From: Branchiostoma floridae
Lineage: Eukaryota; Chordata; Leptocardii; Amphioxiformes; Branchiostomatidae
Assembly: GCF_000003815.2 (NCBI RefSeq)
Contig: NC_049993.1
Coordinates: 19,212,134 to 19,276,133, forward strand
Length of the DNA: 64,000 bases
Direction of reading: 5' to 3'
The notes beneath the pieces were generated by a model. That model was not told the origin of the DNA. It ran no database searches and saw only the letters and a program-made list of their open reading frames with translations. The position numbers and the translations under genes were made by a program. Shown piece by piece: positions 12,003 to 39,000 of the stretch (the stretch's first letter is position 1; each line of letters opens with the position of its first letter).

Positions 12003-15000
12003 ATGGGCAAGAAGAAGGATAAGAAGTCTGAGAAGGCAGAGGAGACCCCGGCACCTGAAGCACCTGCAGCGGAGACACCACCGGCCGAGGAAGGTGCCCC
12101 TCCTCCGCCGCCCCCACCACCACCCCCACCACCACCGCCGCCGCCGTCTAATGGAGGTGAGACATTTTTTGCAATCTTTATCAAAATAGCATGTTGCAGA
12201 CTTTTTGCCAAGTCGGAATTGTGTTGGCATTTACATATATACTCCTCCAGGGAGAATTGCTCTAAAAGTTGAGTATAGCAATTTAAAAAAAGAACATAGT
12301 TCGAAATCTTGCTCACAAACAATTATCATCAAGGAGCTTTAGTCTTTAGAGTTTAGACTAGATATCACGAGAGTCAATACATGTGTACAGCTAATATGCA
12401 TAGGCATTCACAAATAGTAATCATGATTGACATGTTGTCTTGGAGTTCATTGTGGGTCATTTAACAGTTCAATTAAAAAAGGGAATAGCAGAATACCTAT
12501 TCAAACTTCATCCGCAGAAGGCACTATTTTCACTGGCATTTCTACATTTGTTTGCTACTTTGTATGTTTGAAGCATAACGCAACTGTCTTCTGCTACTGC
12601 ACTGCTCTGGGCCGAATCAGTCAAGTCCATGCCCCCATTGTAAGATGGGAAGAGATGATAATTATGAAATTCCTTTCCAGCTACTGCCGCCGAGGATGAC
12701 CCTACCCGCGCATTAGATGACGTAGTGGCAGCGGCAGAAAAAGGTGACAAAAGCACGTAGTCAGGCTGTTTGCTGGGTACAACATGTTCTAACTTCTAAC
12801 AGAGTGACGAGTGTTTTAGGGTACACATTCTTGGAAAGGTCCACCACTCTAAAACTACTGACAGCATCCTCGGTGATGTGACTCACTCACTGCCATCTCC
12901 ACTGCCAACAGGTGAAACATACGCATGAAAAAAGACAGCTTCACGAATTTCTTTGCACAACTTTCTGAGATATTGAAGATGTCTCTTTTTCTTTAGATGA
13001 TGCAGCAGTAGTGGATGACGGCAATGCGATGGAAGCAACCATCACCTTTAACGGGGAGGAGGAGATACCAGCAGAAGGAGGTGATCTGATTCTTTCATTA
13101 TCTTTGATGAGGAGGTTCCGACTTCATCGTCGCTTGTCTGTTTGTCTTCTTTGAATAATAAAGAATAAACTGGCAGAACAATTCATTACCAGCACATCTA
13201 ACTGGGAAAACCAGTTGAGTTGAACGTGTCGAAGTCACTACTTCAACAGTTTTGTCATATGGACAGACATGTAAAACCTACCTATTATCCTTTACCCTTT
13301 TCTCCAGCTACCGACAACACGGAGTTTTATAAGAAACTGTCGGATGACGAGGCCAGCGAAAAAGCCTCTCTGCCCCCGGAGGAGGGGAAACCCGTGGAGA
13401 GGACTCCTTCCTTCTTGGAGAGGATGTCCCGAAGATTCAGCTTCAAGAAGTCGGAAAACAACGGCGAGCCGAAGCCCAAGAAAGCCGGCCCCTTCGCAGG
13501 CATGATGGCCATCCTTAAAGAAACGTCGAAAATGCCGCCGAAGGATAACAACGCCAAGGCGCTGGCCAAGCCGAACATGATGGATAATCTGTTCTCCAAG
13601 TTCCGGCCCAACAAGAGGATCGAGTTTAATCTGGAGGGGCTGCTGGATGATGACGTCAGAGGGAAGTACGCGCGCTACGACTTTCCGTTTGAGAACCTGG
13701 TGCTGGAGGGTGCCGGGGGGCACCGGGGACTGGCGTACGCCGGGGCAGCCAAGGTGCGTCTTGGTGAAAACTGCACATTTTTGACTTGATACAAAAGCTA
13801 ATCCACAGGATATAAGATATAATGGTCAGAGATTCCGAACAGCATCCACTGTTTTTGCATTTTGCCGCCTTAGCGGCAAAATGCTCTGAGGCCAGAATAG
13901 TGGCCGTTGTGATGTTGAGATGAACGGACCTGTTCAATTCATGCCAAACATTTATATACCTTCTAAAACAGGCATTTCTTTAGCATTGTCGCATTGGCGC
14001 AGTGGTAAAATTTACGCATTCTAAACTAATGCACCCGGTTCGAATCCGGGGAGGTATTTTTTTCAACTTTTTTTTTTCTTTTTTACATCCATTAAAATAC
14101 TAATTTTTACATCCATTAGGCCATACCAATTTAATTTGTTGCTTCTCGGAATCGCCGCTTCTATTTTTCCCAATTTCAAAAAAAAAAAAAAAATCCAAAA
14201 AAAATTCCTGTAACGTTACGGTAACGTTAACGTTAACGCAAGTTGCTGGACTTGAAACAAACTTTGGTTCAGTTGAAAATAAAAGAACTTCTGAAACTAG
14301 TACTGGACTTGCAAAATAACTATCACCTGCTTATGTTCTCCTTTATGTTGTAAATCATCGAAAACCACCCATAGATCGTTAAATTTGTGCTTGAAAAAGA
14401 CGAAAATGTTGCAGTGGGACAAACAAAATGGCAGCTGCCATATTTGGAAATGGCTTGGCCAATGCTGCCATATTTGGAAATGGCTTGGCCAATGCTGCCA
14501 TATTTGGAAATGGCTTCATTAATATGGAATGAGTACACTAACGCCCTCAAGCGATTTTTATTCAATCTGCAGCTTTCACAAAGAGAATACAATGATGTTT
14601 CAGGCACTATCTATTCTTTGGGGTGAAATTAAGTCAATTTATTGTTCTTGTTGCTACATTAGACATTATACTATGCTGAAAAAGTTTTTCAACCTTCTTA
14701 AAGGTTTTTAAAAGTTGTGTGTGCTGAAATACTCTATGTTTTTGTCTTTATTACTAAGCATTATTACAGCAATGTTACTGTGAATACTTAAGCAATACTG
14801 ATTGCACATAATTTTCCATTTGTATTGCTAAAATTCCACGTAAAGTGTATGACAAAATGCAAATTTTGCATGTAAGTGTAACTGGATCTACCACACATAC
14901 ATGTATACACCAGATTACTATTATTATCATTATATACCATTGGTTCAAGTCTGGAATTACGAACCTGAAACTTTGGACCTGACTGAACCCAGAGTTGTTG

Positions 15001-18000
15001 CAAGTTTTTTTTTTTTTCGCCCTGTCGCTTCAACTTTTTTCTGAAAAAATCCGAGAACCAACAAATTAAATTGGTATGGCCTTATTATACTAATGAACAA
15101 TACTTTTGTACAGAACATTAAAACTCACCTTTGCACCTCTTCTACTGCATTTTTCCGCAGTTGGGATGTTTGAATGAACGAACCGTGAGACGTGCGATAC
15201 TCTGCGTATATGTTTCTTTCTAACTTTCCATAAAATGCCCATACAACATCTATATCACAGAATTACACAAGAACAAACTGATTTTCTCGAAAATAACTGC
15301 ATACTGGATAACAAAAAGTTTCAGGAAACATATTCATTTTCATATTCCAGGACATAACTCATTTGCATATTTGTGAATCTCTCCATGCGCCCATATCAGG
15401 TTTTTTATTCTGTTCTATTTATATGACATTCTAATAACTAGAAAAAAAAAACATTCACACACGCAAACCTTGGCAAAATGCCAGCTTTTTTAAAAGCACT
15501 TGTTTTTATTGATAGAAGGGTGCTGTTTGAACTGTTTCTGTTATTCTAAGGTGGGCTAAAACTATTATAGTTATTGAACCAGTAACTTCGGCCATGTAAT
15601 GTTTTATGTACTTGCCCGATAGGACAAGTGAATTTTAGAAAACTTGTTAAACCCTCCACATTCTTGAAAAGAGCCACAACTCTAAAAAAAGGCTGAAGGG
15701 TGCTGTTTGAACAGTTTCTGTTATTCTAAGGTGGACTAAAACTAGTTTTTGAATCAGTTAAAGAGTCAGATGTAAATGAAGTACCAGCTACTTGTACAAC
15801 ATGGCTGTAAATCATATTGCGCATGGAATTGAATCATTTTACATCTATATTATTGAACTAGTTAAAGTGTAATATCCAACACAAAAATTGGACTCACCCA
15901 AATTTTCGACTGAACAGCACCAGTCATTGTCAAAGTCCATTTTTTTGTGTTGGAATTTCAGTTTAACTAGTTCAATAATGACTTCTACCAACACAGATGA
16001 ACTTTCAAGTTAACATTTTACATCTAATAGTACTTAATAGTTGAAAACTTTCCCCCCAGGTCCTGCACACCATCGGAGTGTTGCAGACAATCCGGCGGTT
16101 CGCCGGGGTGGGGACGGGCGCCATCCCCGCCACACTGCTGGCGCTGGGCTGCGCACCGGAGGAGGTGGCGGGACTCACAGACGAGAGCTTCTACGTCATC
16201 TTCGAAGGTACATGTAGCTATAGAATCAATTCTATTTACTTAATATTCATTGAGGTTTACCACATTTGTGGAAGGATTGACATAACAGGTGACTATCACC
16301 TTTTCAAGATGTCAACCCGGAGACCAGACTATATATACACTCACACTAGGAAAGGGCCCCAATAGCTACTCCTTTTGTTCAGTGTGGTGGGTTAAAATAG
16401 ATTCTCATCTCTTTAATATGCCATTGTGACCCGGTTATACTGATATCGTATAATACACAATGCGCAATGTAAAACTCAGCTTATACAATTATAATTTATA
16501 TATCTTTCATTTATCTATTCTATAATTACTCAAAGTTAGAAAAGCACACATGAACATGCCAATTTCTTGTTTCTATTTTTGTCACTTCTTTGTTGTTTAG
16601 ATCATTACTATGGAGCTTTCATGATTGATGAAAGCTCCTTGTTTAGATGAATAAAAAATACAAAAAAATATGTCATAGTAAACAACAAACAAACAAAACA
16701 AAACCATGAATTTCCGTGACCCCCCCTTCCAGACAGCAAGCTGGCCTACCTCAGCATGATGCCCAACATGATTAAGGGCTTCGGCATCTACAAGGGGCAG
16801 AAGTTCTTAGACTGGCTGGGCAAGATCTTAGCAGACAAGACGGGCAACGCTGACATCACCTTCGCACAGGTACGAGGGTGGAGGAACAGATGGATGGATG
16901 AGTGAATGAATGGATGAATGAATTGATGGATGGATGAACAAATGTATGAATGAAATATGGATATAGATGAAGCAGACAAGATGCACAATGCTTGCCTAAC
17001 CATGGCACAGTTGAAGACAGTGATGATGAATGAATGAATGAATGAATGAATGAATGAATGAATGAATGAATGAATGAATGAATGAATGAGAGGCAGGGTC
17101 ATATTACTGTAGCGTGAATATTGAATGGAGCATGGCAACAGTTTGTTAGTTAAGTCTGACAAAAAAAGCAAACACAAAAACACATATGAAATGGCAGTTG
17201 TCAAGTGAAACATCCATATATTTTGTAAACTAGTAAAGGATTTAGCATAATGGATATTGCATTCTTTTGGTTCAAGAGTTGACAAGTCGCAGAACCTTAA
17301 CAACAATCACATGGCCTTATGCACATTACAAGTAGGCATATCTTTTATCAGTAGAAATGCTTGCAGTTAAATGGGACTAGATTTCAATGCCCGAACATGA
17401 TAAGTTTGAACTTGGGTGACTCCAAGTCATTTGCCGCTTTAGCTACAACTTGCTGGTCTTCCGTGCCCATGCAGTGCCTCTGCTGGTTCCTGGAGGGCGC
17501 ATCTTGTTTAATTCTTCCATCGTTTCATCCATGAAGAGGTCTGGATAGAGATCATGTCCTGGAATATAAAATATCATGTATGGTTTCAGCAAAAGGCAGC
17601 TTGATTGAAAAAGACAGTGCACCTTATCATATTGTATACAATGTATGTATATAAACACAAGACGTAGACGTGTTTACTTTAAAAACAGTGTGATAATTTT
17701 CATACCATTTGCTGCATGTATGTAGTAGCTTAGAGCCTGGTCACTTTTGTTAGGTGTTGTGCGATCCCAGACTGTGGGCCTTCTTGAGGTATAGACGCAA
17801 GTGCGTTTGTGGTACTGTCAGAAATGTAATTTGGGGGCTTCTTGGAAAGCCAACAGTCACAGAGTTTATAGATTGTTATTGTTCTGTTATTAGGTCATCA
17901 TCATCATAGCGTTCCGTGCCAGTATTGCAGCCAGGCCACGGCCTTCTCGTTAGCTTCTAGTAGGTCCTGGTTGAAGATGTTGGGGCCTAATACGCAGTCC

Positions 18001-21000
18001 TTCGTAATGTGACCCATGGTTTGGGTTGGGTGGCCACAACGACACTCAGCTGAGTTGTTGATTAGGTGTGCTGACTGCTGTCTTCAGGGGATGAATTGCA
18101 AGGAGCTTACAATATTATTGGCAATTACAAAAAGCAAACTGGGTTCTTGTTACGAAAAAGGCTCTGACAGTCGTAGAGTCTTATAGGTGGTTAATCCCTT
18201 TACAGTCTGCTTGAAAATTAAATGTTGTACAATAATGTATGACGGCCAATGACGGATGTCACCACGCTGTTATGGTGGTCCCTCTTTCTTTGACCCTGTA
18301 CACCCCCGCTGGGGTGGTATGACCCACTCTCCCTGCACTGTGTCCTGTATTCTATAGGACTATGATTGATGCCCAGTTGTCTGCCTGGTATGTACATTTC
18401 TGCAGGGCACAACATCTGCAACCTGCACTTTGTCATGCCTGCATGGTAACTGACAAACAATCTTCTTTTTTTTCTCCTGGTCTGTTTTCTGTTTTTACCT
18501 GACTATTGGACAGTCCTTGTCAGAGAAAATTACATGTTCCTGTTCAGGATTGTAATGGTTTCTTTCCCATGCAGTTGTGTCTAACAGTTCTCTACTATCA
18601 AGTAATCATTTTGCAAAATGCATGCTCAGCAAAGAAATCACCATGGAAACCCCCCAAAAAATAAAACACAATACAACATAAGGCTGTGCATAGCAATTGC
18701 TAGCTAAGTATAGGCTTAAATATTAGCTGCTGAAAATTTCCAATTGTCACTAGAATTTACCATGATATCAGAAGGCCTGATTTCCAAGCATCTAAAAGCT
18801 GATCAATTAAAGAAGCCTAGCAGTAGGGTATAATCAGGCAGCCTATTCTGAGGAACAAACTTAATCTCCAAGAAGATCCTACAGCAGCATAAGATAGTAT
18901 TAAAAACTGCCAGAGGAGTGAAGCCGGCTTAGGAGTGTGTTTCACTTGCTTGCCGGGCGTGCGGTACGCCGCCATTTTAACACTGAAGACAGGTGATGTT
19001 CTGCCGCGTGGGCGGCTTTTTTTCCAACATGCCTCAATTTTTAATAAAAAACTATCATTACCTGGCGAGGTATGACGTTTGTCGAGAGCACTGACGGGGT
19101 TAAAGTTTTCAATGTTGTGATTTAGATGAACTAGAAAGGGATTTGTCGGGTTAGCGGCCGATTCCACGGGCCGGCGGGGGTGTTGGAGGGACGTCCCCTA
19201 TGCCCGATGACCATACCATTTCCGGAGGAGCGTCCCCTAATTGAGGGAGAAACATCCCCTTTCCAAGAGGAGCGCCCCCTTGAAAGTCGAGGAGTGTCCT
19301 GTTTTCTAGAGGAGTGTGCACATTCGCGAGGGATGTCCCCATTCGATTGGTCGGGGTGTACAAGGCAAATGGGCATCTTTTAGCTGACTTCACGCCATGG
19401 CCAGTTTGGTGCTATCTTATGCCATTGTAGGATCTGCTTGGAGATTAGAACACACCTGGCACACAGGAGTACTGCTCGAAGTCTCGGACCCCAGCTTCCT
19501 GCAGAACGTCCTCGTCGACGGCGAGGTTTCCCGTGTAAGTTCTGCCGTCACGCGTCAGCATGACGTACGCGGCGTCCGCCATGATGTCAGTGGAGCGACA
19601 ACCGTCCCGGCCATGCCCCCTGACGTCTATCGCAGCTGTGCCGATTACTAGGATGTCAACATCAAGGATTGTTAGCATTTGCCAAGAGCGAAATTTTTTT
19701 GTACAGTTTCTAGAGGTGTTTATTTGTAGCTTAGCAACAGAACCCTTGAGTCTACAGGATCAGGAAGCTAAGAAATTTGGTGTGTGGGTAGGTTTTCTTC
19801 TATCAAAGAAATTCTTAGCTGTTGGGCCCCAAGGAATCAGAGATGGCAGACTTCACACCCTTACCTGGTAGGGCTTCAAACCCAGAGTCTTCAGATTCTA
19901 ATTATCACTCAACCATCCTAAACAGATGATTGAAAATCTCAATAGACTAGAACCACCATCTACCCACAGTACAACACCCCCTCTGGAGGACAATTACCCC
20001 TGCCAATAGCATGCCTGTCATGGTACATGTTTTATAATTACCACCATGAGTTGCAGAAGGGGAATTGAAAATTACTAGATCACAAATCTCTTCACTTACT
20101 TGTCCTTGGCCAAAGGGCGTTGACCCCTATCCCATCTTCCCTGAACTCCTCCGCCATCCCCAGCACACACATGGACATGCCATATTTGGCCATAGTGTAG
20201 GCTGGAAAGAAGTAGAAAAAATTTTGGGAAAACTCTTACCATTAGAACTTGAAGCTGGCACTGGGAGACTAGATTTGGTATATTGCTTTACTGGTCTATA
20301 ATGATAAAAGTACAGTTAGAGTATGAAGACAAAATTTGACAGTTTTGCCTTTTTAGTGCCAATGATGTCACAACTGATACCTCATCAACCACTCTAAAAT
20401 TCACAAAATGTTTCTGATGTTCGTTCCTTTTTTTCCCATGAATAATGAAGCAAAATAGCCAGAAACTGCTGCATTTCAGAATGCCTAAACCAGCCAACCC
20501 TAACAATGAACAAACATCCATACCAACGTTTCCCTTGAACCACTTGGCTGTCATGTTAAGGGGAGGACTGATGTTTAAGATGTGAGGGTTCTTGTGGCTC
20601 TTCTTTAAGTAGGGGAGGCACTTCTGAGACCTGGACAAGGGTGGAAAATGTCTTAAGAATATAGGATGAAGATCGAATAGTGGTCTGTATCGAATAGTGG
20701 TGGAAGAAAACAGTACGTTCTTGTGTGATCTTTTCCCAATAACTTCCCAAATGCAGTTCCTTCCTGATAAAATGAGGCTTCCCTGTCCATGGCTTAGACC
20801 ACAGCAAGTAAATCTTATGGATAATCATGTTTTTACCCGTCTTGTTTTTGCCCTGAGCGGCTCTTAAATTATATCTGGAGTCTGTAGAGGATGTGATAAA
20901 CAGAATTTACTTGCGGCCATAGCCTTATGCTCAAAAGCTTTCTGGAATGCATATGGAAGAAAACAGTGTTGTGAAGTGATGCAATTTTGCACTTCCCAAA

Positions 21001-24000
21001 AGATGGCGTTGAGCAACAGTCACTCGTTACATCATACTCAGCAGGCTTCAACAGTTTAATTGTGAATGCTTGCAAATGGTAACCGTTCACACTTATTTAA
21101 TTTGCATTCTTGCAAATGGTGTACTAAATGACACGAACGGCTTCAAACTCAGAGATACAGGGGCGAACCGGCGTTCAGGACGTTTGGGCATTTTCATTTT
21201 TACAGACTCTGAGGTAGATAAAAGTCACGTCAACTCACACCATGAAGGTTCCCCTGGTGTTGATGTTGTTCATGAGGTCGTATCTCTTCATGGGAGTCTC
21301 CAGTGTCCCAGTCAGACTGATGGCGCTGGCGTTGTTCACCAGCACGTCGATCCCTCCAAACTTCTGCACAGCCTGCTCTACTGCAGACTGGACCTGGTCC
21401 TCAAACCGGATGTCCACGATACATGGCAGACACTTTCCTCCTGCTGCCTCAACTGGGAGAGAAACAATACATTTCAACACATCCTAACCTCTAACCTTCA
21501 ACCTCTAACCCCAATTAACCGCTGCCTGAACCTGGTCCTCAGACCGGATATCCATGATAAACGGCAGGCATTTCCCTCCCGCTGCCTCAACTGAAATAAA
21601 AGAGGAGACATCCTTAGTTAAGAAACTTTAAGATTTTACAAGCATTCCTAGTTTAGAAATGAAATTCAAGTAACAGGAACTATCTGTGTCTGGTATAGGT
21701 TGATATTTTCTTGGAGCATTCTGCTAGGAACACGGTATGATAATTTGTTGTGAGTTGACAATCTGTGTTTTTATCCTGACTGTCTCCCTGTATTCATACT
21801 TGTGACTGATTACATTCTGCCTATGTTCCGACAACCATTGCACCCTAACCCAGACATAGAGTTGCCCGAAGAAGGCGTCAAACACAGGGCTGTCCTGGTC
21901 TGGTTCTTGTCAAGCCATAAGTACAAATAGAAGAGGTCCAGATCTTACAACTTTCAGAATCAACTTTCCCAAGGTATGAGAAAAAGACTCACCCTCCCTA
22001 GCTGCTGTGTAGATGGTGCCGGGGAGTTTGGGGTGGGGTTCTGCTGTCTTAGCTGCGATGACGACATTGGCTCCGTCACGAGCACACTTCAGGGCGATGG
22101 CTTTCCCTATCCCCCTGCTCGCCCCCGTGATGAAGATGGTACGACCCGCTAGCTCTCTGAAAACATCAGCATTCTTCAAACATGCATGCCTTAAAAAAAA
22201 TGTTCACGATTTATGAGCAAAAAAAGGGACATTACAATTTGCAACTGCTGTGTATTAAGAATGCTAACATCCTTAACAATTTTGGCCCAGATAGCTTGGG
22301 GCTTATGGCTCACAAATAGTAATCGAACTGGTTTGGCTCCGAGTTTCTGATAAGCTAAATCAGATGTATAACACACTGCTCTGAGTTCAGTTGTTATTAA
22401 GATTAGGCATGATTCTAACTTTAAGAAACTAAAAATGAAGCCAGCTCACCCAGTGTTTTCCATTATGGCTCCTCTTTGGTCACTGCCACTAGTGCCAGTT
22501 TGCTTACAAAACTTCCACTGGACTTTACACCTGTCTGACCTGGGGGTCATTCACCCCAGGGCTGGGTAAAAGGTCATGGGGATATACCATTCACGAAAAG
22601 GAGGGAGGTGTTATACAAGCCTGATTGTAGCATAATGTCTGTGTATCAAAAGATCAGTTCTTCCAGATCTCTTCAGTGTGACTGACGAAAGATAGAGGAT
22701 CCTATCTGAAACGTCTGACCGTTTCCAAAACCATATCCCGTAACTTGAGTAACTGCTTTTTGGCATATCTTATACCTGGATGTCTAATCTTCATCAAAGT
22801 AATGTCTGTGTACATGTATGTCTAGCTGTTGAGTTATACCTGCAATTCCTACCTCAATCTGTAGCTAAGAACTTTTTATAGCCAACAGAAGCATGTGCAT
22901 TTCCATTCATTGCTTTGAAAACCTCCTAGTTGAAGACTTTATCACTTTTGGAGATCAGTACACTCATAACCAGCTATGACTTTTCAGTCATTCAATATTC
23001 TTTATTGCCCATAGGAAATACTAGTACATGTTTGCTTTCATTTACAAGATTATACAGTTAATGTATTAAAATAATTTTTTCAACCAATGCAGGAAAAACG
23101 TGGTTAATAATCTGCCCCAAATGAGAACATGTTGTTTCTTATTACAACTTGCTAGCCTTGGCAGCCCCTGCAGTTCTGGCACCGCCCAACAGGTGGCGCC
23201 TCTTGTCCATGTCCTCTTGAGTATGGTCCAAGAAGCCACAGGGCATTAGGGGGTTGCCTGTGCAGGTAAAGCAGAAAAAGTTTGATAATGTTAATGTTCA
23301 TGCCAAAATGACCTAACAGGGGACTGCTTTTCTTACCGCAAGTTTGTTAGATAGTTTGGGAACACTTGGAAAATAAAGATCACAACAGTTCAGCAGATGA
23401 CAAGATTAATCATTGCCTTGTCTTATAACATATTGAACAGCTATCATGAACAATTGTCCTACAGCCATACATATCAATGACAAGAAAATGGGGATACATA
23501 TAGCTAATGCTCCTGACTCTACAAATTATACAATGTACAATATTTGTAGCAACCAGAGCAAACAGTTTCCTAATTAGAAGATTTACTTAATTTGATTTGA
23601 TTGGTAATGCCAGCCTTGTATGCGCTCTAGTCCATTTTTGTTGTTAGTATTCTTGTTATTCTTACATTGCGAAATGACTTTATGTTCATGTCATCTTAAG
23701 TTATATGTTTCATTATAATCTCAATTTTGTTACTTTTGATTGTCATTGTATGTAATATACAGAGCAGAAGACCTCCATAAGCTCATTGTGAGCTAAATCT
23801 TGTCCCATGCTCAAAAATGAATGCGAATAAAATAAAATAAACAGTTTCATACCTGGGACGTAGGCATACTGCTCAAAATCCTCCACTCCTGCCTCTCGTA
23901 GGACGTCCTCGTCAACAGCGAAGTTTCCCGTGAATCTCCGACTGTCTCGTGTTAGTATGAAATACGCGGCGTCCGCCATGATGTCCGCCTTACGACACAT

Positions 24001-27000
24001 CTCTCGCGGGAATCCGAGAATGTTGTCTATGGCAGCTGTGGACACCGCTATGGCAACAACAGATTGCTTAATCAGTCTAACTGTATTGTGTGAGCCTTGA
24101 ATTTGTTTCTCTGATATGATAGCGACTGTTTGCCTATTTCAACTTACAACCTGATCTAAGCATTCACTTTGTCATGAAGTCATACATGTATTCTTAATGT
24201 CTAATGATAAGCAATTATTCTTATTCATTGTAATTCATCAGACTCAAAGCAGGATCATAAGTGGTTATTATGGCTATATTACTGTACATTTGCTTGGTAT
24301 TGCTTGTATTTGTTTCATCTGTTGTAAGCCCTTGTATGTTGTAGAAGAACTTGGATGGGCAATTGGGTAATTGTGTTTCTTAGTTGCATTGTCAACAGGA
24401 TATTATCAGTAAGATTGATAATAATAGTAGCTGCCAGTACCTTTCTTAGGCCAGATTGCATTGACGGCTATCCCATCATCCCTGAACTCCTCGGCCATCC
24501 CCAGCACACACATGGACATCCCAAATTTGGCAATGGTGTACGCTGGAATTAAAAGAGATTTTTAGAAAGAAATCTCGCATTTGGCCTGTTGTTTAAGTTA
24601 TTGAAAATGCAACAGTTAAGAAATGATATAAGGGTGGCTGTTGTCTAGCATCAGGAGGTCAGGAGGGTAGACTCACTTCCATTCTGTTAGCAAACAATAA
24701 TTATAATTTATAATCATAAAAATCAATCTGAATATTAGTCATGTTAGTTGTAATCCTTTAATTCACAACAATTGCAGGATGATGCCATTGTCCAACAGCT
24801 TTTTTTCTGACTACGTTGATAAATTATGTTTGTTTGGCAATTTAAGCTTTGTGCTATTCCAATGCTGCTTAGTTTTTTCAAGTGCAGCTAGGAATCCCTG
24901 ACATAATTTTCCCTTACCAACGTTATCCTTGAACCACCTTGCCTCCATGCTCAGGGGAGGGCAGTTGTTTAAAATGTGGGGATTCCGACTTTTCTTCAAG
25001 TAGGGCAGGCACTTCTGAGACCTGGAAATAAAGAAAGAATTCATCAGTCAGCAGAAATAAACTCTTGTAATTGTCTTATTATCAAACTTTCATGTTTTTG
25101 AGGAGAGGGTTTTATAAGCACTTTGTAAACTAAATTGTGATAATTTGCATATAAAAAACGGTAGAAATCATTTCCAAGCAGAAGTTGGGAAGGGAGATCT
25201 GAGTATATCCTGCTTGGAGATTAGGTGGCGCGGCCAACAACTGTTATAAATGGGAAATGGTTACTAGAATAGAAGAGGACATGCAAAACGCATTTTCAAA
25301 AATGTTTGAGATTACCATCACGACTGTCAATCAATCAATCAATCAATCAATCAACCAACCAACCAACCAACCAATCAATCAATAGCATGTCCAACACTCA
25401 CACCATGAAGGTTCCCCTTGCGTTGATGTTGTTCATGAGGTCGTAAGTTTTCATCGGAGTTGCGAGCGTTCCCGTGGGACTGATGGCGCTGGCGTTGTTC
25501 ACCAGCACGTCGATCCCTCCAAACTTCTGCACAGCCTGATCTACTGCCGCCTGAACCTGGTCCTCGTACCGGATGTCAACGATACATGGCAGACATTTTC
25601 CTCCCGCTGCCTCAACTGGGGGGAAACATGACAGTTTACGGGTTCGATGAAAGAGCTGGGCTGTCTACCTGGGCTGTCTACCTGGCCTGGCTATCACGTC
25701 AGGCTACTCAGATCCCCCCATTCATAGCCCCATCATATGGCACTCAGCTGATTGACAGGCATAGTAATTGCTAATCTCTAACCCTGCTAGTGACCTGAGG
25801 TTGGCCTGTCCATGTGCACCACTGGCTGGGCCCTTCGGGAATGTGTCTGGGAGGCATTCCTTGCAGGAACACAAGTACCAGTGTGTAGTAATAATTAGCA
25901 TTATGGTGATGTGTCCCAGATCCTAATTTTGAAGCTGTTTAGTTTTGCATTTCAGGACTACATGTATTCCTAAAAGCTGTTAGTCAGGACTATGGATGGG
26001 GGGTTCTGAGTAGCCTGACGTGATAGCCAGGCCAGGTAGACAGCCCAGGTAGACAGCCCAGCTCTTTCATCGAACCCGACAGTTTACATCACACACTGAC
26101 CTGTAACCCTTAAACTATAAGTTTTAGTATAACCTTTAAGCCTGCTCTACTGCTGACTGTACCTGATCCTCATACCAGATGTCCACGATACATGGCAGAC
26201 ATTTTCCACCTCCTACCTCTGAGTCAACTGAAGAAACAACGAAGATCATCTGTAGGAAGTCAGCTGCTGAAAGAAATTGAAACCTAACAATACGCCGTTT
26301 CAAACTCGGCAGGTTGTGAGTTGCCTGCAACTTTCAGATTAGAAACAATCTACTTCAAACAGACAGTTAGAAGAAGCAGGAAACACTGAACACAGATGCC
26401 AAAAAGCATCAAACATGTACTAGGTAACCCTATCAAGATCATAACAACCTGTGAAAATGACAATTAGCATTTTCTCAACTCTTCATTCCCTACTGTTGTA
26501 TCATCATAAAAGCATATTATTAGGATTTGAAGGCCTTAAGTAATTTGACATTTGCTAACTTTTCAAACATGGCTAAGACCTTATTCGTAGCTTTGGGAAA
26601 ATGACACCTCAGAGACGGCTAAGACCTTAGTAAGATTTTAAGTGGGACAAGTTTGATAACACTTAGACACAGATGATATCTAACTCACTCTCCCTAGCTG
26701 CTGTGTAGATCGTGCCGGGAAGTTTGGGGTGGGGTTCTGCCGTCTTGGCTGCGATGACAACATTGGCTCCGTCTCGAGCACACTTCAGGGCGATGGCTTT
26801 CCCTATACCCCTGCTCGCCCCCGTGATGAAGATGGTACGGCCCGCTAGCTCTCTGTAACACATTGATCGATTATTTAACAATCCATGCCAGATCAGCATA
26901 CATATACGGCCTGCATGTGTAAAGGACAACATGTTCCATATAACTATTCCACATACAATACTCCATTTCTAACATGTTTCTTTGGTGGAGACCCTATTGT

Positions 27001-30000
27001 CTCTCTCTCTGTCCGTCAGTCTATCCAGACTATGACAAACTACGCAAAAGGACTTAATGACAAATAGAATACAAGTAATTGTTGCTACGCATTAATATCT
27101 CACCGACTGCATAAATGAAATAATTTTCATTACTAAATGTAGACATAAAGTAGTGCCATGCTAAACTCTGTTCACAGTCTTCTTACTAGATAAATAGATA
27201 GGGTGCCTAAAATGATTGGGGAAAGAGGACATAGTCTACATGTGTAAATAGGTTACCTTACATAAAGAGCTTTATATTAAGTTAATCAGTTACTCAGTAA
27301 CTAAAGGACTACCTTAAGACGAGTACACATCTCAGATGTCAAGATGCTAAGAATTCCAAATACTGTTGTCAGTTCTACAAAACATCAGACTCAAGTATTG
27401 TAGGGTCTCTTTTCCTGTCCCTATGTACATGTAGGTGTTACCAGTGGACTAAATAATACAGTTTGGACCGATTGAGTAACATACCACAACCTTCCCTGTA
27501 TCCAAAACTAGACATGATTTTACTTCCCTGCTTCATCTGAAGTGGAACGCTCCTTCATATTTCTTGAGAAATCAAAGAAAGTAAGCTTACCCAGTATTCT
27601 CCATGGTTGTGTTGTGATCAGCTGTGCCTGCAGTTCCAACTTGCCCTTAAGGTCATTCACCCCAGGGAGTGCGGGTGAAAGGTCATAGGTGAAGTTAAGG
27701 AAGAAACCATTCATTGGGAAGGAGGGACATTTGTCTGGAAAGTTAGAAAAACCTGATTATATTTTGAATACACTGTATATCAGAGAATTAAACTACAAAA
27801 TGTGATGTTTCTGACTTCTCTTTGGTCAATTTCAACTAAAGTGATTCTAACCAAGTCACAAATAGCATAATGTCCTGTAATGATTAACAAGAACAAAATT
27901 GTAACACTGCAATGGCATAGACATGCCTAATTTATTTTTCACCCCTAAACAACAAAATCACTGTTATGTTATTAAAATACAACAATGGGTCCTTTACTCG
28001 TGGACGTTAATATCAATTTGCATTGTTTGCAGCATTTGTCAGCAAGTATAACAGCACTTCTTTAAACATGTGCACCAAGAGTAATGAAAATAACAACAAA
28101 GCCTTCATAATATAATATAATACAATATTCCATCAAGAGGCCTTTAGTCATATTCGTTTAAGAGGAAACTGTGCTAATCAGCCAACTGTATTTCTACTGT
28201 TAGCCTATGGCTGAATACAATTTACTCAGGCAATTTTGTACACCAAAGTTATCCGCTACCTATTCCTTTGGCCCGCTATTTTCCTCAATCCAAATCAACA
28301 ATCAAGTAGATAAAAGTGTTATTGGGTGGATACAGTGTAGCAATACGCCTGTCAATGTCATTAGGTGAATACATAGTGTCAATGTGATAGTAGATGGCCA
28401 CATTGTAGCACTACAGCAGCCTGTACACAAACTTCAGACGATATTGTACACAAGGCTTTATTGTCTCTGCCATAATGTACAACAACATTCACTAGAGTTT
28501 CAAAGTTCACAACCTCTTCATTTGGCCCAAAACTTCCACAATTCAAACTACAACTCAGAGGATACAGTTTAGCAATGTGCCACTCGGTATCATTAGGTGG
28601 ATACATTGTAGCAACATGCCACTCGGTATCATTGGGTGTATACATTGTAGCGCTACATATACAGCCAGTTTAAACTTCCCTACTACAACTTGGACTTCAT
28701 CTGCCCCATGAGTTTCTCAATTCAAAATACAACTCAGTGGATACAGTGTAGCAATATGCCACTCGGTATCATCAGGCGGATACATTGTAGCAACATGCCA
28801 CACAGTATCATCAGGCGGATACAGTGTAGCAATATGCCACTCGGTATCATCAGGCGGATACATTGTAGCAACATGCCACCCGGTATCATTAGGTGGATAC
28901 ATTGTAGCGCTAGATATACAGCTGGTTTAAACTTCCCTACTACAACTTGGACTTCAGTTGCCCCATGAGCTTCTCTAGTTTGATAGCCATGGCCAGGTCG
29001 CCCTTGATCCGGAGTTTCCCGGACATGAAGGCCTGGGTCGGCTGCATTTCTCCCGCAAACATCTTCACAAAGTCCTCCGAATCCATCGTCATCAGGACGT
29101 CCGGTTTCCCTGACGACACCTCGCCTGCCCCGCCACCTCCCGGAGCGTTCTTTAAGTCCAGGTGCCAGGTGCCTTCATCCGCACCTGGGGAGAGGATTTG
29201 ATGTTTATTTGTTTTGTTTATTTGTTTATTGAGATAGTGGCAGAGAGGACATTTTGTTTAATGCTATTACTAGTATTAGTCTTATCTATCTTTTTTTATC
29301 CAGATTCACAATTTTTTTTTCAACCTTTGTTTATTCATGAAAGCTCAAATTGGCCAGCAGGCCGCTCTTCATTGAGGTCATGAGGGAAGAGGCAAGGGTC
29401 AGACAACGTATATAACAGAGATACAGTTTATATCACAAGTCTTAATGAGTCTTACAAGTCTATAAGTCTATATACACAATTTTTGGATATTTGGCAATGA
29501 TCATCCTGCTTGTACTGTATGACCTGAAAACTGTTACAACATCTAGCCAACAATGCCAGAAATCAAACCTTTCAAGACATTTCAAACTCAGCATTAATAA
29601 TGGCACATATAGAAGTAGCTAGCTCTGTCGACCCACCTGTGAGGTTGAACTGGAAGACTCCCTTCACAGAGTTGAGGATCTCCTCAGACACCAGCGAGTT
29701 GATGACCTCAAACGTCTTGGCCGGCCCTCCCGCCGTGCCTTGAGACGCGCCGCCGGCCGCCGTGGCCTGGGGAAGCCCCTTGTTTAACTCCTCAGCAGTG
29801 ATGTCCAGGAAGAAGTCTGGCATCAGGGGGTGGCCTGGAAGACAATGTTATAGAATTTTTCATCTGGTTTAATTATAAAAATGGATTACCGTCTCCTGTC
29901 CATTCATGGTTACAGATAATTCAAACATTGTCCTTTTGTGGCAAGGACAGATTTCTTTTTTAGCAAACAGGCGCAATTCAATGAATAATGGCAGTTCATC

Positions 30001-33000
30001 AAGATGTTAGTTTTATAGAAAACATGTACAGGAGCATCCTGTACATCTGCCACCTCAGCTCTGAGACAATACCAGATGGGAAAACGAATCACTTCCTGTT
30101 GCAGTTTGATAGCTCAGACTATAAGTCATTCTTTTATACTGTCAACAAAATCTTTTATCATTTTCTTCTCAATTTAATTTTGATGAAAAGGAGGTCAAAG
30201 TCAATGGTAGCTTTCATTAAATAAAAATTCCAAATTGCATACAGATTCTAACCTTTGCAACCAAAAAGTACTGTTGCACAAACTTTGGGTCTAGGCAAAA
30301 GCATGTTGTCCCACCAAAATGTTAACAAGCGTAAAGTGCCCTACAAGAAAAAAATCTCAACAAAAACCTTTAATTGCAATCAAAGTACGAAGCAAGACCT
30401 CTCACCAGGCACACAGGCGTACTGGTCCATGTCCTGTACTCCCTCCTCCTTCAGAACATCCTCATCAATAGCAAAGTTCCCGGTGTAAGACTTGCTGTCC
30501 CGCGTTAGAACCACGTACGCAGCGTCTGCCATGATGTCGGGCTTACGGCACTGTTTCTGCGCATCAACCCCGGCCAGCATGTCCATGGCAGCTGTGGAGA
30601 TGGCTAAGGGAAACAAAAATTAATGAAGCAAACAAATGCGCAAACTCTTCTTCATCTCTTAAAGGGCGAAAAATAAATCTTTCATACGAGGTGCCTATAG
30701 CTATACAATATAAAAAAAACCTTCAGTGCTTCATGCATTTCCTTATACTATGTACTTATTCTGCTTCATTTAATTTCCAAGTCCCTTTAAATGTGAACTT
30801 TTGTGGATTCTGCATGCATTACTTTACAGGTATCTTGAATTAAGGTCTAAAACTTTTTTCCAACTTTCTAAGTGCAGATTTTGTTGAGGTAACGTGAAGG
30901 AAGTACAATGTACTTCTAATGACTGCCTTAGTATGGCCTTGTAAAAGAACGTATGTTGTTGTGTGATGTATTTTTTAGAGTCATTGTCATTCTAGAATTT
31001 TGTTCAGCTTGATTTTGCATCTGATTTGCTAGAAACACAAAGATATATAATGTTGTGGTTAAGTTGATTATAGACTGCAAAATAGCATGCTAGACTTAAC
31101 ATTTTCTTTACATTAGATATCAATTACTCTTTTAATGGATTCTCATGCCTAGTATGACTTTAGTGATTCGACTTCTCTTGCATATTTGAATTTGGTCCTG
31201 ACAATCAGTTTGGGAATTTTGGTCTGATCGTAACCATGGTTACCCGTCAAAACCTACCAGTCTGAGGCCAGAGGGCATTCACTGCTATCCCATCATGCCT
31301 AAACTCCTCTGCCATGCCCAGCACACACATGGACATGCCATATTTGGCCATGGTGTAGGCTGCAACAACGTGAAGAAAACACACCTTAAACAAACAAACA
31401 AACACCATGTCAGAGAGGCTTAAGCAAGAGGTGACAAAAAGCATTTGTGGCTATTATTGAGGGAACAAATTTCAGTAAATTTTGGGATTCTAAATGTTTT
31501 GGAAATTTGTTTCTAACTTGGAGAAAAAAAAATCACATTTTTCCAAAGCCAAGTTGCTTAGTCACCTCTGAACTTTAACCTCTCCCTGACACTTGACCCC
31601 CAGCCACCTACCGGTCAGAGGCCAGAGGGCATTGACCCCTATCCTGTCAGGCTTGAACTCCTCTGCCATGCCCAGCACACACATGGACATGCCATATTTG
31701 GCCATGGTGTAGGCTGTGTATGGGGTATAACGGATCATGACATATGAATTATCATACAGCAGCATTCATTATCACCTGGCGATTTTTTATTACCCCTTGT
31801 GATTTAATTACATAATCACAAACACTGCTTGGATTGGTTTGAGTGTGACAACTCTTCCCTTGTATTTGTAACATAGCCAGCTGCCACCTAGAGAAAAAAA
31901 GGCATTCTGTATTGTAAATATGAAATAAAATATCACCAATCAGAACCAGAAGCTCATATTTTAGTCTCATCTTAAAGCAGAAGCTTTCTACAAACTTCAG
32001 CAACTTTAATATTACAATCCGTATAAAAACTTTGACTATGAAAATAATACTATAATATGCTTAAACAAGCTACATTAGTGGTCTGACTTCTTCCAACTGT
32101 TTGTAAAACTTGGAGGCAGATGAAAGATGATGGTCAAATATTTTGTAAGACGTCTTGTAAGACTCCTTACCGACATGCCCCTTGAACCAGTGCGGCTGCA
32201 TGTTGAGGGGAGGACTGATATTCAAGATGTGAGGGTTCTTTCCACCCTTCAGGTACGGAAGGCACTTCTGGGAACTGAAACCAAAAAAAAAAAATTAAAG
32301 TTTATCTTAATCAAATGTTGCACCTGGAAAATGTAATCTTGTCATAACACTAAGATGAACAAGAACTCTCTGTATGCACATTTGAACAGCAAACTAAGAT
32401 AGGTTTGATTAACCACTAAACTTAGTGAGCCAAACAAATCTGCTGAATATGCTGTCCTGAAGACTACCTATTTCCACTGGTTCAAAAGCTGGCTTGCCAA
32501 ACCACAGAAGTCTAAGCCAGATCTTGACTATCAGTGGTATTACCTTTTGACTCAACTAAGACAGTATCCATTTACTTTGATATTGTCTATGGGGTTGTAT
32601 GTCTTCATAGGCATCTCTAAGGTTAGTTAAAGAAGCTGTTAAGTTTATAGCATTACCAAAGACACTTCCCATTCTTTGATTTTATCCACGGCATCTCCAA
32701 GGTTAGTTAATATAGAAACTCATACGAGTAAGTGAGTGAGATAAGTTTATAATACATGTAGATCATTACTTAAAGACTCACACAAGATACGTTCCCCTTG
32801 CGTTGATTCCGTTCATGAGGTCGTATCTCTTCATGGGAGTCTCCAGAGTCCCAGTCAGACTGATGGCGCTGGCATTGTTCACCAGCACGTCGATCCCTCC
32901 AAACTTCTGCACAGCCTGCTCTACTGCTGACTGCACCTGGGGGTAGGGGAGGGGGGCATGGGTTAAGTCTTGATTTAAAAAAAATCTATCTGCTTGGTTC

Positions 33001-36000
33001 TTTCCTGTCTTTAAGTAAAACTTCATAAAAACGTTATGGAAACAGAGGACTCGGAGCAAAACTCGAATCGGACTATATTCAAATCAACATCCCTGAAACT
33101 GAGTATACCTATGAGATTACAGAGCACTACAGATTTGCCCTCAGACTCAGTTTTCAACATTTTTTACCATGTGCAGATGATCATAGAATGAGCTGATTAG
33201 ACATGGATTTCAAAAGCATCGATGGAAGCTAGCAAAAGATTCTTTTTGTTTGTACTTTGTTAGGTAGAAAATAAACCATTACTCATTACAACTATATCAT
33301 ATAACATTACACTTGAAGCTGTTTACATACCTGGTCCTCAAACCGGATGTCCACGATACATGGAAGACATTTTCCTCCCGCTGCCTCAACTGAGGAAGAA
33401 TGCAACAAACTTACATTGTAAAATGCTACCAAAGACATCATTGAACAAACTCAAAATTCTTCAGTTGTGGACATTTTCTAAGACTGGAGAATGAAAAAAA
33501 AAAAAACGCATTTTAAAATGCAACCAAAAACATCCTTGAACAAGCTCTAAATTCTTCAGTTGTTCATATTCTAAGACTGGAGAACTGAAAAGAAAACTCT
33601 GCAGAAGACATACTTTCTTCAGCTGCTGTGTAGATGGTGCCGGGGAGTTTGGGGTGGGGTTCTGCTGTCTTGGCTGCGATGACAACGTTGGCTCCGTCTC
33701 GAGCACACTTCAGGGCGATGGCTTTCCCTATCCCCCTGCTCGCCCCTGAGATGAAGATGGTACGACCCGCTAGTTTCCTGCAGAAAAAAAAGGCATATCA
33801 CATAAAAGATCATTATTATAATACAGCTTACAGTACAAATGTCTTCAAATATTCTTCTGTGAAATCTTACCAATCTAGATATACATTTTTACAGGCATTA
33901 GCTATGTACTTGAAGATATAAAGCATAACCAAACTTTGAAACTTTGACAACATTAATGTACCACCCCTGAGTAACATCAGGGAATCTGAGAAATGTGACA
34001 AAACCAGTTCTGCCAACAAATCAGAGAACCAAGTGGCGAAAGGTCCCCATTTGTACAGTCTGTTACGAGGTGGCACTATAATCTACCTTTCGTTTAACCT
34101 GATATAAACGAGAATGGGGGAAGGAAGGTCATATCCTAGCTCTAATTTCAAAGAACTTACTTAAGTCAGAGAGGTTTCAATGTACAGCTAAGAATTCCAT
34201 TGATTTAATTATTTGAAAGTCCCATCCACTCATACAGTGCTAAGTAAAGTTGAAAATTATATAACCAAAGCCACACAACGTTTCAAGTTTAGTAGTAGAC
34301 TGGCGAGTAATGTCTCCAGAATCCCACTCTACACGTAAAAAAATAGGGCAGTGAGAAATGAACAACCAATCCAGTGTAAAGACTTAAACACAACACACGG
34401 CGTCCAACAAACATACTCCTACACCGCCTATCTAGATCTAGATCTGTTGTACAGCAATGCCCTTCGCCCCCCTCCCCCTTAAAAATAAATCAGCGCTTTA
34501 CCCCCTTCTTCTAACTCTTTCCAACTCATAAACTCGTCCACAAGTTGTTGGCCAACTTAGGAAACAAGACAAATGCATTATTCTAGCGATAGACCCAGTT
34601 TTACCCCGTATTCAGCATTTTGTCCTGCCGGTGTGAGCTGTTGGACCTGACACACGATACCACACGCAGGCACAGAGGTCAAAGAGCACAAAGGGCTGTA
34701 CCATTATCAAGAAGGGAGGGGATTTGTTACTAATTATTTATCGCCTCTGGCAAATTGTTTATTGGCTTTGCTGACTGGTTGTTCTATCGGTTGTCTGGTA
34801 TTTTCAAACCGTGGAAGTCACTTTAATACTAACGTTAGCAGTTGTTTGGCTGGATGTTGAACAATGAACGTTGAGAATTGAAAAAAGAAATCACTTTACT
34901 TTACACCCGGCTCCCTTATTGAACTTAAAACACAAATATCATCTAAGCAAGCTTATGATCCTAACTAACATTACCTAAGTAACATAATATTGTGCTTCAT
35001 ATTAGTATTGCTTGCCCCCTAACCTATGAAAAACACCACATTACCCTGTATTCTGCATGGTTCCCTTCAACCACCTGTATAGCGAAAGAAGAAGAAGCGT
35101 TTCGTCCACCTGTTCTGTAGGTCAGTGACCCCGGTCTGTGAAAGTCCAGTTTGTGGAACAAACCATCAGAAAGGGGAGGGGGTCCTAAATACTTGCTTCG
35201 ATCATCTGTGGAGCTATTTGCTTTTGGACCTGTCCAGATGTCTGATGTTTATTGCTTGTAGGTCAATGTCTTTGACCCTACACTGCAAGTCATTATTACC
35301 ACTTCATAACAAGCAAATAATGGAGTGATAGAATGGATGAATGGATACATGAATGGATCATTGAATGTACCTGTATATATAGATGAATGAATGAATGGAT
35401 GGGTGGATGAAGGAGGGAAGGAAGGAATTGATGAATGCACAGATGAAATAATGAATGAATGAATGAATGAGTGAATGAATGAATGAATGAATGCAACTAC
35501 TGTACGATACAGATCTGTAAATGAATGTCGTGCTATATTGTTCCAGTTGTACAAGCTGTACGAGACAGAGCTGTGCATCGTCGTGACGAACCTGAACGCT
35601 AAGATGGAGGAGTACTGTCACGTCAAGACCACTCCGGACATGCCGATCCGGATCGCCATCCGAATGTCCATGTCCATCCCGGGTAAGGCCATGCTTATCT
35701 TACCCTTAAATCCTCCAGCCTCATTTGCAGACTTCTAGTAGCGGTAGAGACCGAGATTAAGGTGATAAGGATTTATTACGGCGGTCTCTAAATTATAAAT
35801 ACCGAGTTTCAAGTCAATCAATAATTAATTGATCTGAACTTGAGACATGAATCGGGTTGAAAATTCCAAAGTCTTTTAAGCAAATATCCGCTTGCACAAA
35901 ATTATATAGACTCCGATCGGAAATCTTGAAAAGTTAAACACTATCAATTTGTGAGCACTTAAACTTTCGTTTCTACCTCTGTATTTATCCTTTTCCATGT

Positions 36001-39000
36001 TTCCGTTTCCGCAGGTTTCTTCCAGCCCGTGAAGTACACTAAGAACGGGCGGGAGTGTCTGTTCGTGGACGGCGGGATCTGCTGTAACTACCCCATCCAC
36101 TCATACGACGGTAAGTTACTTGTCTGTTTAACGACAGTTCTTAGATAAGCAAGTGCATCTGAATGACTTTCCAAATTGTGTCGATATCTGGCATGTGGTT
36201 AGCTGTCAATAAAAACTGGAATAAGTTTGAATTTTGGCCCTCTAGTTAATTCTAGTTTGTAGGAGGCCCTCAAGTTAATTCTAACCTTGGAGCAAATTTA
36301 CCATCCGTGATGCTGCTTCCCTTAACTATGGTAGCTAGTTTCCGGCGGGATTTTCTGAACTTAGTTAGCAACAGGGGAGAGCAACACATTGAGCACGTAA
36401 AAGAATCCGCCACGCTTATCGAAAAGAGCAAGGGTCCTTCCCGGTGTGTGTAAACCTTTCCTGCTAAATGGGGTAGGGAATTACCCGAGCAGCCTTGTAA
36501 CCCCAGCTTCGTCTGTTGAGTCAGTGAATTGAACTTGCCAAAGCTTAATGTTCTGACTTAGGAGAAGAGATGCTGCCACAGTGAGCGTAGTACGGTGCCT
36601 AGAAGTGGTCAATGGCCTTGCACTGAGCAAACGTGTCAAGAAAAACATATTCATGGGTCTTCTCTGCATGTTCCAGGCTGGTGGCTGTCCATGGACAGTC
36701 AAAACTCCTTCTTCAACCGGATGGGGGAGGTGGGCGAACTGCTGGACGTGAATGAGATGTCGGACCGGTTCGACTCTTACAACAACAAGACTCTGGGCGT
36801 CATGGTGGTGCGTACAGCTTCGTTGATTATTTGATTAGTTAATTGACTAGTAGATTAGTCAAATATTTCGTTGGTTGACTTTTTGATTAGGTGGCTACTA
36901 CTTTGAATGTGATGATGGCGGGGTGATCAGTTCACTGGTTCAACGTTGGGACAATCGAAACCACTCAAGGATAGTCAAAAAGCCAAAAATCAAAACAATA
37001 GCTTAAAGATTCGTTTCATTAATTGGTTTGTCAATTAGTTAGCTACATAGCTTATGAGTACAGAATGTGTAGCTAGTAGTCGACTGCACGTTAAATGGTT
37101 ACTAATTAATGAATTACGTGGGTCCATTGAAAGCATTACGAAAGAGTAAATAGACCTTCATCTTAGAACACCTTAATTTCTTTGATAGTTTGTTAGTTAG
37201 CTTACTAACTAATTAGCCAATGAGTTAAAAACAGACAATGGCAATGTAAGGAATATATGTACATGTCCGCATAAACATTCATACGATTCAATGGACTACA
37301 ACGTGCACTGTCCTGATTCGTGGATATTATTGACGTATTTATCTGTTTGTGTTCGTTCATTTGTTTGTTTGTTTGTTTGTTTGTTTAGTACTCCAATGAC
37401 GACCCGGAGGACATGAGGAGCACGCTGAAGGCTCGTGAGGGGAAGAAGAAGACCATCAGACCGGACACTGTGCTAGCCGGGTGAGTCCCACGTGTCTGAC
37501 ATAACGTGTGATGGTTCAAAAACACGCTTTGAGTAGATGCACTTCTGTAATTTCTTCTTGAATTTGTTACATTAATGCTACGTCACAATTCGTAAAAGCT
37601 ACCACAGAATTAGGGACTGCGTAAACGTCACAAAGGGGTACAAATGTCTTGAAACTGACTTCTTCTACCATTCACCACCGTTTCTGGAGCTAGGGCTCTT
37701 TGAAGTACTGTGGCGCATTACTTTGTACCCGAACTACTATTGAACACGGAAGTTGTTGAAAAAACCGTGAGGCGTGTTGGATACACCCGATCCATCGATC
37801 TCGGAAGTTAAGCAACGCACAGTCCGGTCAGTCCTTGGATGGGAGGCCACTCAAGTACGACCGGATGTTGTAGCCTCAAGAGGCATTCCACGAAATCGTC
37901 TTCCGTGAGGGACGTACGCGTAAAACGAGGGTCCCATGCTCGAGGAGGTGCCTTGACCACGTTAAACAGTCTCATTACCCACTCTTTGGGTACCTACTGG
38001 CTGCAAATACAGCCGATATTATCATATGAATACTGTGTTCTGTCTCAAATGGAATAACACAACATTCTAACCGAACTTTCAGCACCAAGGACAAGGCTGA
38101 GCGGGATAAGATCGGCGCGCAGGAGTTCCGCAAGAGGACCAAGGACATGATCGGAGACTTCCTGAACGCCGTCAAGACGAGCGACGCAGACGGAAGCGGC
38201 ACCATCAACAGGAAGGAGCTGGAGGACGCCTTCTTAAAGGTTCGTCCGTTTGTTTGTTTGTTTGTTCGTTTGTTTGTTTCTTTTGAATTTTGGACTTCAT
38301 TGACCATTGTCACTGCTTCTATTGGAGACTTTAAACGCACCAACACTGGATAACTAAACAAATGAAAATTGTTGACAAGTAGGATGGTTGAAAGGAGGAA
38401 AGAAACGAGGTAGCCGGGAAAAGAAGGATGAGAGAAAGAAAGAAAGGAAGGAACAGAGGGAAAGAGAAAGAGAGAAAGAAAGAAAAGCTGCAAGGAAATT
38501 ATGGTTTACAAACATAGAATGATACATCGTCGTATTGCGTACCTTTGACAGCCAGATACAGAATTCGTTTGCTACCCATCGTGGTAACAGATCTACTTTA
38601 AGTTGACAAGTACATGTAAACAAATGTCTAACTTGATCCCCAAATCCGTCTGCCCCCCAGGAGGCTGAGAACATCAATGACGGTGAGACCATGCCGACAG
38701 GCGTGTCCGTGGCGCAGCTGTTTGATGCACTCGATGTCAACAAGGACGGAGAGGTAAGATGACCATGACCACAATTCAGAAACAAAACAGTTAAAGTGAT
38801 GAAAGAACTTACGTTGTCCAGTTCTTTAAGAACCTGTTAGAGCTGTTGTTACAGTATCGGAAACTGGATAATGATAATTGATACTGAAACGGTACAGTAA
38901 TGAAATAGACTGAATCTGTTGACACGATACGACCTAAACTACACCCACACATCACCTACCAGGATGTTGTGTGATTCTTTGTGAACCTGTTCAAACTTTG

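Follow-up and report, generated by a model that had tools for sequence, protein, structure and literature searches.

Human HSDL2 has been found in both peroxisomes and mitochondria and carries ARL as its type 1 peroxisomal targeting signal (PTS1), as outlined in PMC3583843, whereas later work presents the protein as mitochondrial with an N-terminal signal and gives even its endogenous ligands as unknown (summary of PMC11141617). A polychaete HSDL2 is summarised as combining a short-chain dehydrogenase/reductase (SDR) domain with an SCP2 domain, without ARL (PMC9863881), and a plant survey, as outlined, found no Arabidopsis peroxisomal SDR with which to group human HSDL2 (PMC10288848). Here we describe three tandem minus-strand HSDL2 genes of the lancelet Branchiostoma floridae, in the order A, B, C, located in a 64,000-nucleotide stretch of DNA (C15:19212134-19276133; "the window" hereafter means this whole stretch) within a searched genome of 513,431,437 bases in 431 contigs. 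An original prediction, made from this sequence alone, had proposed that two of the genes lack SCP2 and still end in the peroxisomal signal SKL; its premise that HSDL2 is peroxisomal stands for human peroxisomes but needs qualification in view of the mitochondrial location, the later mitochondrial assignment and the polychaete protein without ARL in the sources just cited. With a probability of roughly 0.7, we read B and C as descendants of one HSDL2 copy that lost SCP2 at the inter-domain linker, bears its SKL end there, and would be made as a peroxisomal stand-alone SDR. The gene models are as follows.

28940..34618, minus strand: gene A, HSDL2 with SDR and SCP2, 9 exons, 412 amino acids, ending KSKL (spliced model; Pfam; NF006133)
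34618-34605, 33777-33614, 33389-33331, 32936-32782, 32274-32171, 31713-31612, 30603-30406, 29834-29637, 29184-28940, minus strand: exons of gene A
28940..29834, minus strand: exons 8 and 9 of gene A, with linker, SCP2 part and terminal SKL (spliced model; Pfam; tblastn)
23142..27604, minus strand: gene B, SDR only, 7 exons, 302 amino acids, ending ASKL (spliced model; Pfam; NF006133)
27604-27591, 26852-26689, 25615-25402, 25021-24918, 24542-24441, 24047-23853, 23257-23142, minus strand: exons of gene B
23142..23257, minus strand: last exon of gene B, 116 nt, linker, SKL and stop (spliced model; B-C comparison)
17443..22463, minus strand: gene C, SDR only, 7 exons, 302 amino acids, ending TSKL (spliced model; Pfam; NF006133)
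22463-22450, 22156-21993, 21452-21239, 20630-20524, 20201-20100, 19647-19456, 17558-17443, minus strand: exons of gene C
17443..17558, minus strand: last exon of gene C, 116 nt, linker, SKL and stop (spliced model; B-C comparison)

The array spans 17443-34618, exactly as predicted, from the final base of the C stop to the initial base of the A ATG. Every intron in the three models is GT-AG and none of the models has an internal stop. Pfam searches assigned gene A an SDR domain and an SCP2 domain (PF02036, 82.9 bits) ahead of the C-terminus GQLKSKL, and B and C, which end in AAKASKL and ARKTSKL, an SDR domain with no SCP2 domain found. Spliced models and Pfam thus bear out the original description of A as a full SDR+SCP2 gene ending KSKL, and of B and C as intact 302-residue paralogs ending ASKL and TSKL without SCP2. 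SKL is the canonical PTS1. Judged by their predicted proteins, B and C count as HSDL2 paralogs through ancestry, but their architecture is not that of a two-domain HSDL2.

What remains in B and C corresponds to an entire SDR unit. NF006133, a 278-residue SDR-only subfamily model covering bacteria and archaea with a cut-off of 250 bits, scored 446 bits for A, 423 for B, 435 for C and 269 for a fourth gene, D, located on another contig and described below, while the next family reached 106-114 bits; the matches of B and C extended over residues 6-277. The best three solved relatives of B and C were human HSDL2 (3kvo; E 1.2e-118 for C and 1.3e-117 for B, across the whole SDR domain) and the bacterial, SDR-only chains 3sc4 and 3e03 (E 5e-89 to 3.5e-93). 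Of the SDR motifs, TGxxxGxG appears as TGASRGIG in both B and C, and YxxxK as YTIAK in B and YTMAK in C; the glycine motif of A reads SGASRGIG, not TGASRGIG. Since B and C match both an SDR-only model and SDR-only structures, they appear to retain the complete catalytic unit and are predicted to be stand-alone SDR enzymes, for which we infer turnover.

The tandem array and the exon identities (90-94% between paralogs in exons 1-3 and 64-68% in exons 4, 6 and part of 7) indicate that A, B and C are descended from one gene. A phylogeny of seven sequences (among them human HSDL2 from 3kvo and two bacterial chains, these over their aligned parts only) grouped B and C as sister copies with a bootstrap value of 99, or 85 with only the less alike exons just named, for which the placement of the human sequence relative to A received no more than 43. 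Synonymous (dS) and nonsynonymous (dN) divergence were estimated by the Nei-Gojobori method with gap-facing codons dropped, dS being infinite for A-B in exon 4 and for A-C and B-C in the linker. Between copies, dS amounted to 0.26-0.50 in exons 1-3, 0.46-0.62 in exon 5, and 1.3-2.5 or saturation in exons 4 and 6; on the B-C values for the latter two (1.3 in exon 4, 2.4 in exon 6), B and C are to be regarded as old copies. Likeness among the three genes in exons 2-3 is limited to the exons and a few flanking bases, with almost no similarity between the introns, which makes local homogenisation or constraint on silent sites likely in these exons. The possibility that B and C represent a haplotype or assembly duplication was rejected given a dS of at least 0.26 even in the closest exons and close matches at a single genome place among the matches listed.

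Both SDR-only genes have been under purifying selection. Over the SDR part, dN/dS was 0.185 for A-B, 0.19 for A-C and 0.15 for B-C, answering a check that the original prediction had proposed for B and C, and for B-C it was 0.09 in exon 4 and 0.11 in exon 6. Depletion of nonsynonymous changes was significant in Fisher tests on rounded counts (A-B, p = 2.7e-21; A-C, 1.9e-18; B-C, 7.6e-24; B-C exons 4 and 6, 4e-15).

B and C agree in the length (116 nt) and acceptor position of their last exon; 51 of its first 104 nt are identical, followed by 11 of 11 and then, past the stop, 17 of 60. The 11-nt identical block, AGCAAGTTGTA, codes for SKL and the TA of the stop, and is the longest identical run in the exon, the next being 6 nt. 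When the match pattern was shuffled 20000 times, complete identity arose over the final 11 nt in 4 trials and over the nine SKL bases in 39. Given the equal exon and the identical AGCAAGTTGTA, one event rather than two appears to account for the SKL end of B and C, which was most likely inherited from their common ancestor and is sited about where the SCP2 part of A begins. Of the earlier interpretation, the view of B and C as coding genes under selection is supported (dN/dS 0.15-0.19), and the long SKL block in an otherwise drifting exon agrees with it, while the two genes count as a single origin of the end.

Comparison with exon 8 of A places the SKL at the start of the SCP2 part, according to the alignments. 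With B and C set 18 nt (six codons) short of A, the best A exon 8 site for the B/C pre-SKL stretch ends at the T of AKT, immediately before F-E-V, the start of the SCP2 part; this site ranked first of 187, 184, 178 and 169 windows at 12, 15, 21 and 30 nt, respectively, the ranks being taken within one exon, with several window sizes tried and uncorrected. Global BLOSUM62 alignment of each of these two proteins to A likewise set SKL opposite F-E-V, and a three-sequence alignment split the final L from SK, which affects the linker only. The last exon of B and C had been described as starting like exon 8 of A and then diverging; the beginning holds, but the likeness runs up to SKL. As the linker can be aligned in more than one register, the origin of the SKL is about evenly balanced between two routes: it was kept, through a deletion that brought the final codons of A up to the linker, or regained, a new stop and SKL having formed in place. 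Joining to unrelated DNA may be a third origin. All three genes encode the final KL as AAG TTG, where TTG makes up 16 of 156 leucine codons sampled, and an origin in place would compare GCC AAG ACG TTT of A with AGC AAG TTG TAR (6 of 12 nt identical). Local DNA alignment of the 3' ends scored 46 for B-C against a shuffle maximum of 39.

A number of observations weigh against the reading of B and C as peroxisomal, SKL-bearing enzymes derived in this manner. Some concern the kept version of the SKL in particular: MAFFT shortened B and C by three codons and paired the lysines of SKL and AKT, as an origin in place would have it; a test with 8-residue windows found its best site one residue off that expected; past the stop, likeness to A was at chance level (A-B 12/40, A-C 10/40); and local DNA alignment of the 3' ends, scoring 24 for A-B and 29 for A-C, did not exceed the shuffles (means of about 24, maxima of 36 and 41) and was rejected as evidence of homology to the end of A. 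Others concern the tail and the genes more generally. The linker is fast-evolving (A-B dN/dS 0.58, other pairs saturated), only 13 of the 35 residues preceding SKL are identical between B and C, and the conservation of SKL is measured on one pair of copies from one lancelet genome. Neither AATAAA nor ATTAAA occurs within 573 nt of the C stop, compared with single-hexamer distances of 135 nt past the stop in B and 477 nt in A. Further, at residues ~148-154 (exon 4), near the active site, B has NCPPLS where A and C have ISPPLN.

Gene D was recovered by a search of the lancelet's own genome (42% identity).

C6:9387909-9389497 (L016:5410-6998): gene D, divergent HSDL2-subfamily SDR, 3 exons, GT-AG, 284 amino acids

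The domain search found SDR only in D, with no SCP2, and the protein ends VTIPDSKL, such that a C-terminal SKL tripeptide is common to A, B, C and D. By these features D is a newly noted fourth gene with the SDR-only layout and SKL; since its tail, inspected by eye in the alignment, does not resemble the tails of B and C, it may represent a separate SCP2-free, SKL-ending case.

Taken together, the array suggests the following course of events. Gene A keeps the standard two-domain plan, whereas the proteins from B and C would be NAD(P)-dependent short-chain dehydrogenases standing alone. Their free SKL tail would be bound by the PTS1 receptor PEX5, which would import the folded proteins into the peroxisome matrix. 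Their substrate there would be lipid-derived, and no tethered lipid carrier would take part. That the two copies lost the lipid-carrier half yet still end in the peroxisomal tag suggests that the enzyme half may be of use in the peroxisome by itself. The first 12 residues of B and C include one basic and two acidic residues, compared with two basic and none acidic in A; any mitochondrial signal would thus be weaker in B and C than in A, and SKL would then decide.

An unlikely alternative is that the SKL tails are inherited or chance ends devoid of function and that B and C are cytosolic or mitochondrial SDRs. The partly or mainly mitochondrial location of human HSDL2, as outlined in PMC3583843 and PMC11141617, lends it some weight, as the family would then not depend on PTS1 alone. 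So does the weak conservation at the residue level, where, on the 13/35 background, three identical SKL residues would arise by chance about 1 time in 20. Set against this, the nine SKL bases are identical in an exon that is 49% identical around them, gene D also ends in SKL, SKL is the canonical PTS1, and the acidic residues near their N-termini make a mitochondrial signal in B and C less likely.

Considerably less probable is that gene conversion has kept B and C alike and that one of them is decaying or unexpressed. Some homogenisation is likely from the gap in dS between exons 1-3 and exons 4 and 6, C lacks a nearby poly(A) hexamer, and additional exon-3 copies lie in the introns of B and C; the frames and splice sites are nonetheless open and intact throughout both genes, and B-C dN/dS is low also in exons 4 and 6, which are not homogenised. 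That the terminal exon is mis-modelled, with true transcripts ending elsewhere, be it in another exon or in those of SCP2, is the most improbable of the alternatives, for although trans-splicing or read-through from A to B could occur, no SCP2-like exon was found downstream in the window, the PF02036 matches listed comprise A and four elsewhere, and B and C agree in last-exon length and acceptor position.

The SCP2 searches behind this last point covered both window and genome. Relics downstream of B or C were sought and rejected, tblastn of the SCP2 part of A against the window returning noise only at up to E 100; the A SCP2 exons lie upstream of both genes. Splicing of B or C on to SCP2 exons, which the original prediction had named as one outcome that would count against it, therefore finds no cis material downstream by tblastn in the window, where the same query elsewhere gave noise except for a spare A tail beside A. 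This tail, IEKLMGQMKSKL followed by a stop, occupies 28683-28721 (minus strand) within the DNA 3' of A, which is rich in repeats; 37 of 40 nt past its stop match A's own. Genome-wide, PF02036 produced at least five matches, made up of A, a pair on C2 and single ones on C3 and at C15:69971, and none of those listed was on C6, the contig of gene D. The SCP2 exon at C3:18560672-18560878 (L002) ends SRLKTS then stop, without a PTS1, and that at C15:69971-70039 (L004) ends REKAKL then stop, which is PTS1-like.

A broader and more doubtful proposal is that the work of HSDL2 has been split in this animal. A would be two-domain and maybe dual-localised, while B and C would be peroxisome-only following a one-step SCP2 deletion that kept SKL, with loss of the basic, non-acidic N-terminus (K6E, L2E), and D would have reached the same layout separately, giving at least two origins in one animal.

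Further features of the locus were noted in and around the three genes.

31258..31359, minus strand: duplicate of gene A exon 6, 102 nt, same phase; the model with the duplicate is also 412 amino acids (spliced model)
12003..41421, plus strand: host gene, patatin-like with EF-hand, 756 amino-acid model (gene model and domain search)

The two copies of A exon 6 (31258-31359 and 31612-31713, minus strand) match in length (102 nt), phases and GT-AG borders, and are identical at 92 of 102 positions; both bear YTMAK and, with the frame kept by either, are candidate mutually exclusive exons. Exon 3 is split by an intron in A (59 and 155 nt) and forms a single 214-nt exon in B and C, upstream of which lie partial additional exon-3 copies (B 26160-26219 and C 21530-21594, minus strand). 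Intron 2 of B also contains an inverted-repeat element (25639-26078) with 92-nt arms that are 97% complementary and 256 nt between them; flanked on both sides by GACAGTTTAC, it resembles a MITE-like insertion. A, B and C all sit within a single intron of the host gene (16870-35546), on the opposite strand. The host patatin-like protein has GVGTG at the position where GxSxG is expected, and hence its catalytic serine may be missing.

Judging from known HSDL2 plans, the two-domain arrangement is likely the bilaterian state and B and C are thus derived. SCP2-less HSDL2 paralogs were not described in the titles and abstract openings covered, a scope lying outside subscription journals and preprints. 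The genes bear on the questions of what the HSDL2 substrate is, whether the two halves need to be tethered and which organelle is relevant; if the peroxisomal reading is true, B and C, together with D on another contig, argue that the dehydrogenase works alone in the peroxisome, and the three offer natural constructs for probing substrate and location. With HSDL2 itself, B and C have in common the whole SDR domain, YxxxK and a C-terminal PTS1 (ARL in human, as outlined in PMC3583843), but they are without SCP2, their SKL is on the linker, and human HSDL2 is dual localised. The bacterial SDR-only proteins of NF006133/PRK08278 (3sc4, 3e03) present the same SDR unit, residues 6-277, without SCP2, to which B and C add ~25 residues of linker and PTS1. 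The stand-alone peroxisomal SDRs DHRS4, PECR and DECR2 consist of one SDR domain and a C-terminal PTS1, and B and C are alike in plan but belong to another SDR subfamily; we know of no SCP2 domain loss in DHRS4, PECR or DECR2. Finally, yeast IDP3, which gained a PTS1 after gene duplication as outlined in PMC4526572, is, as here, a duplicated enzyme copy with a peroxisomal tag, with the difference that the lancelet parent gene already carries a terminal PTS1 and that a domain was lost from its copy.

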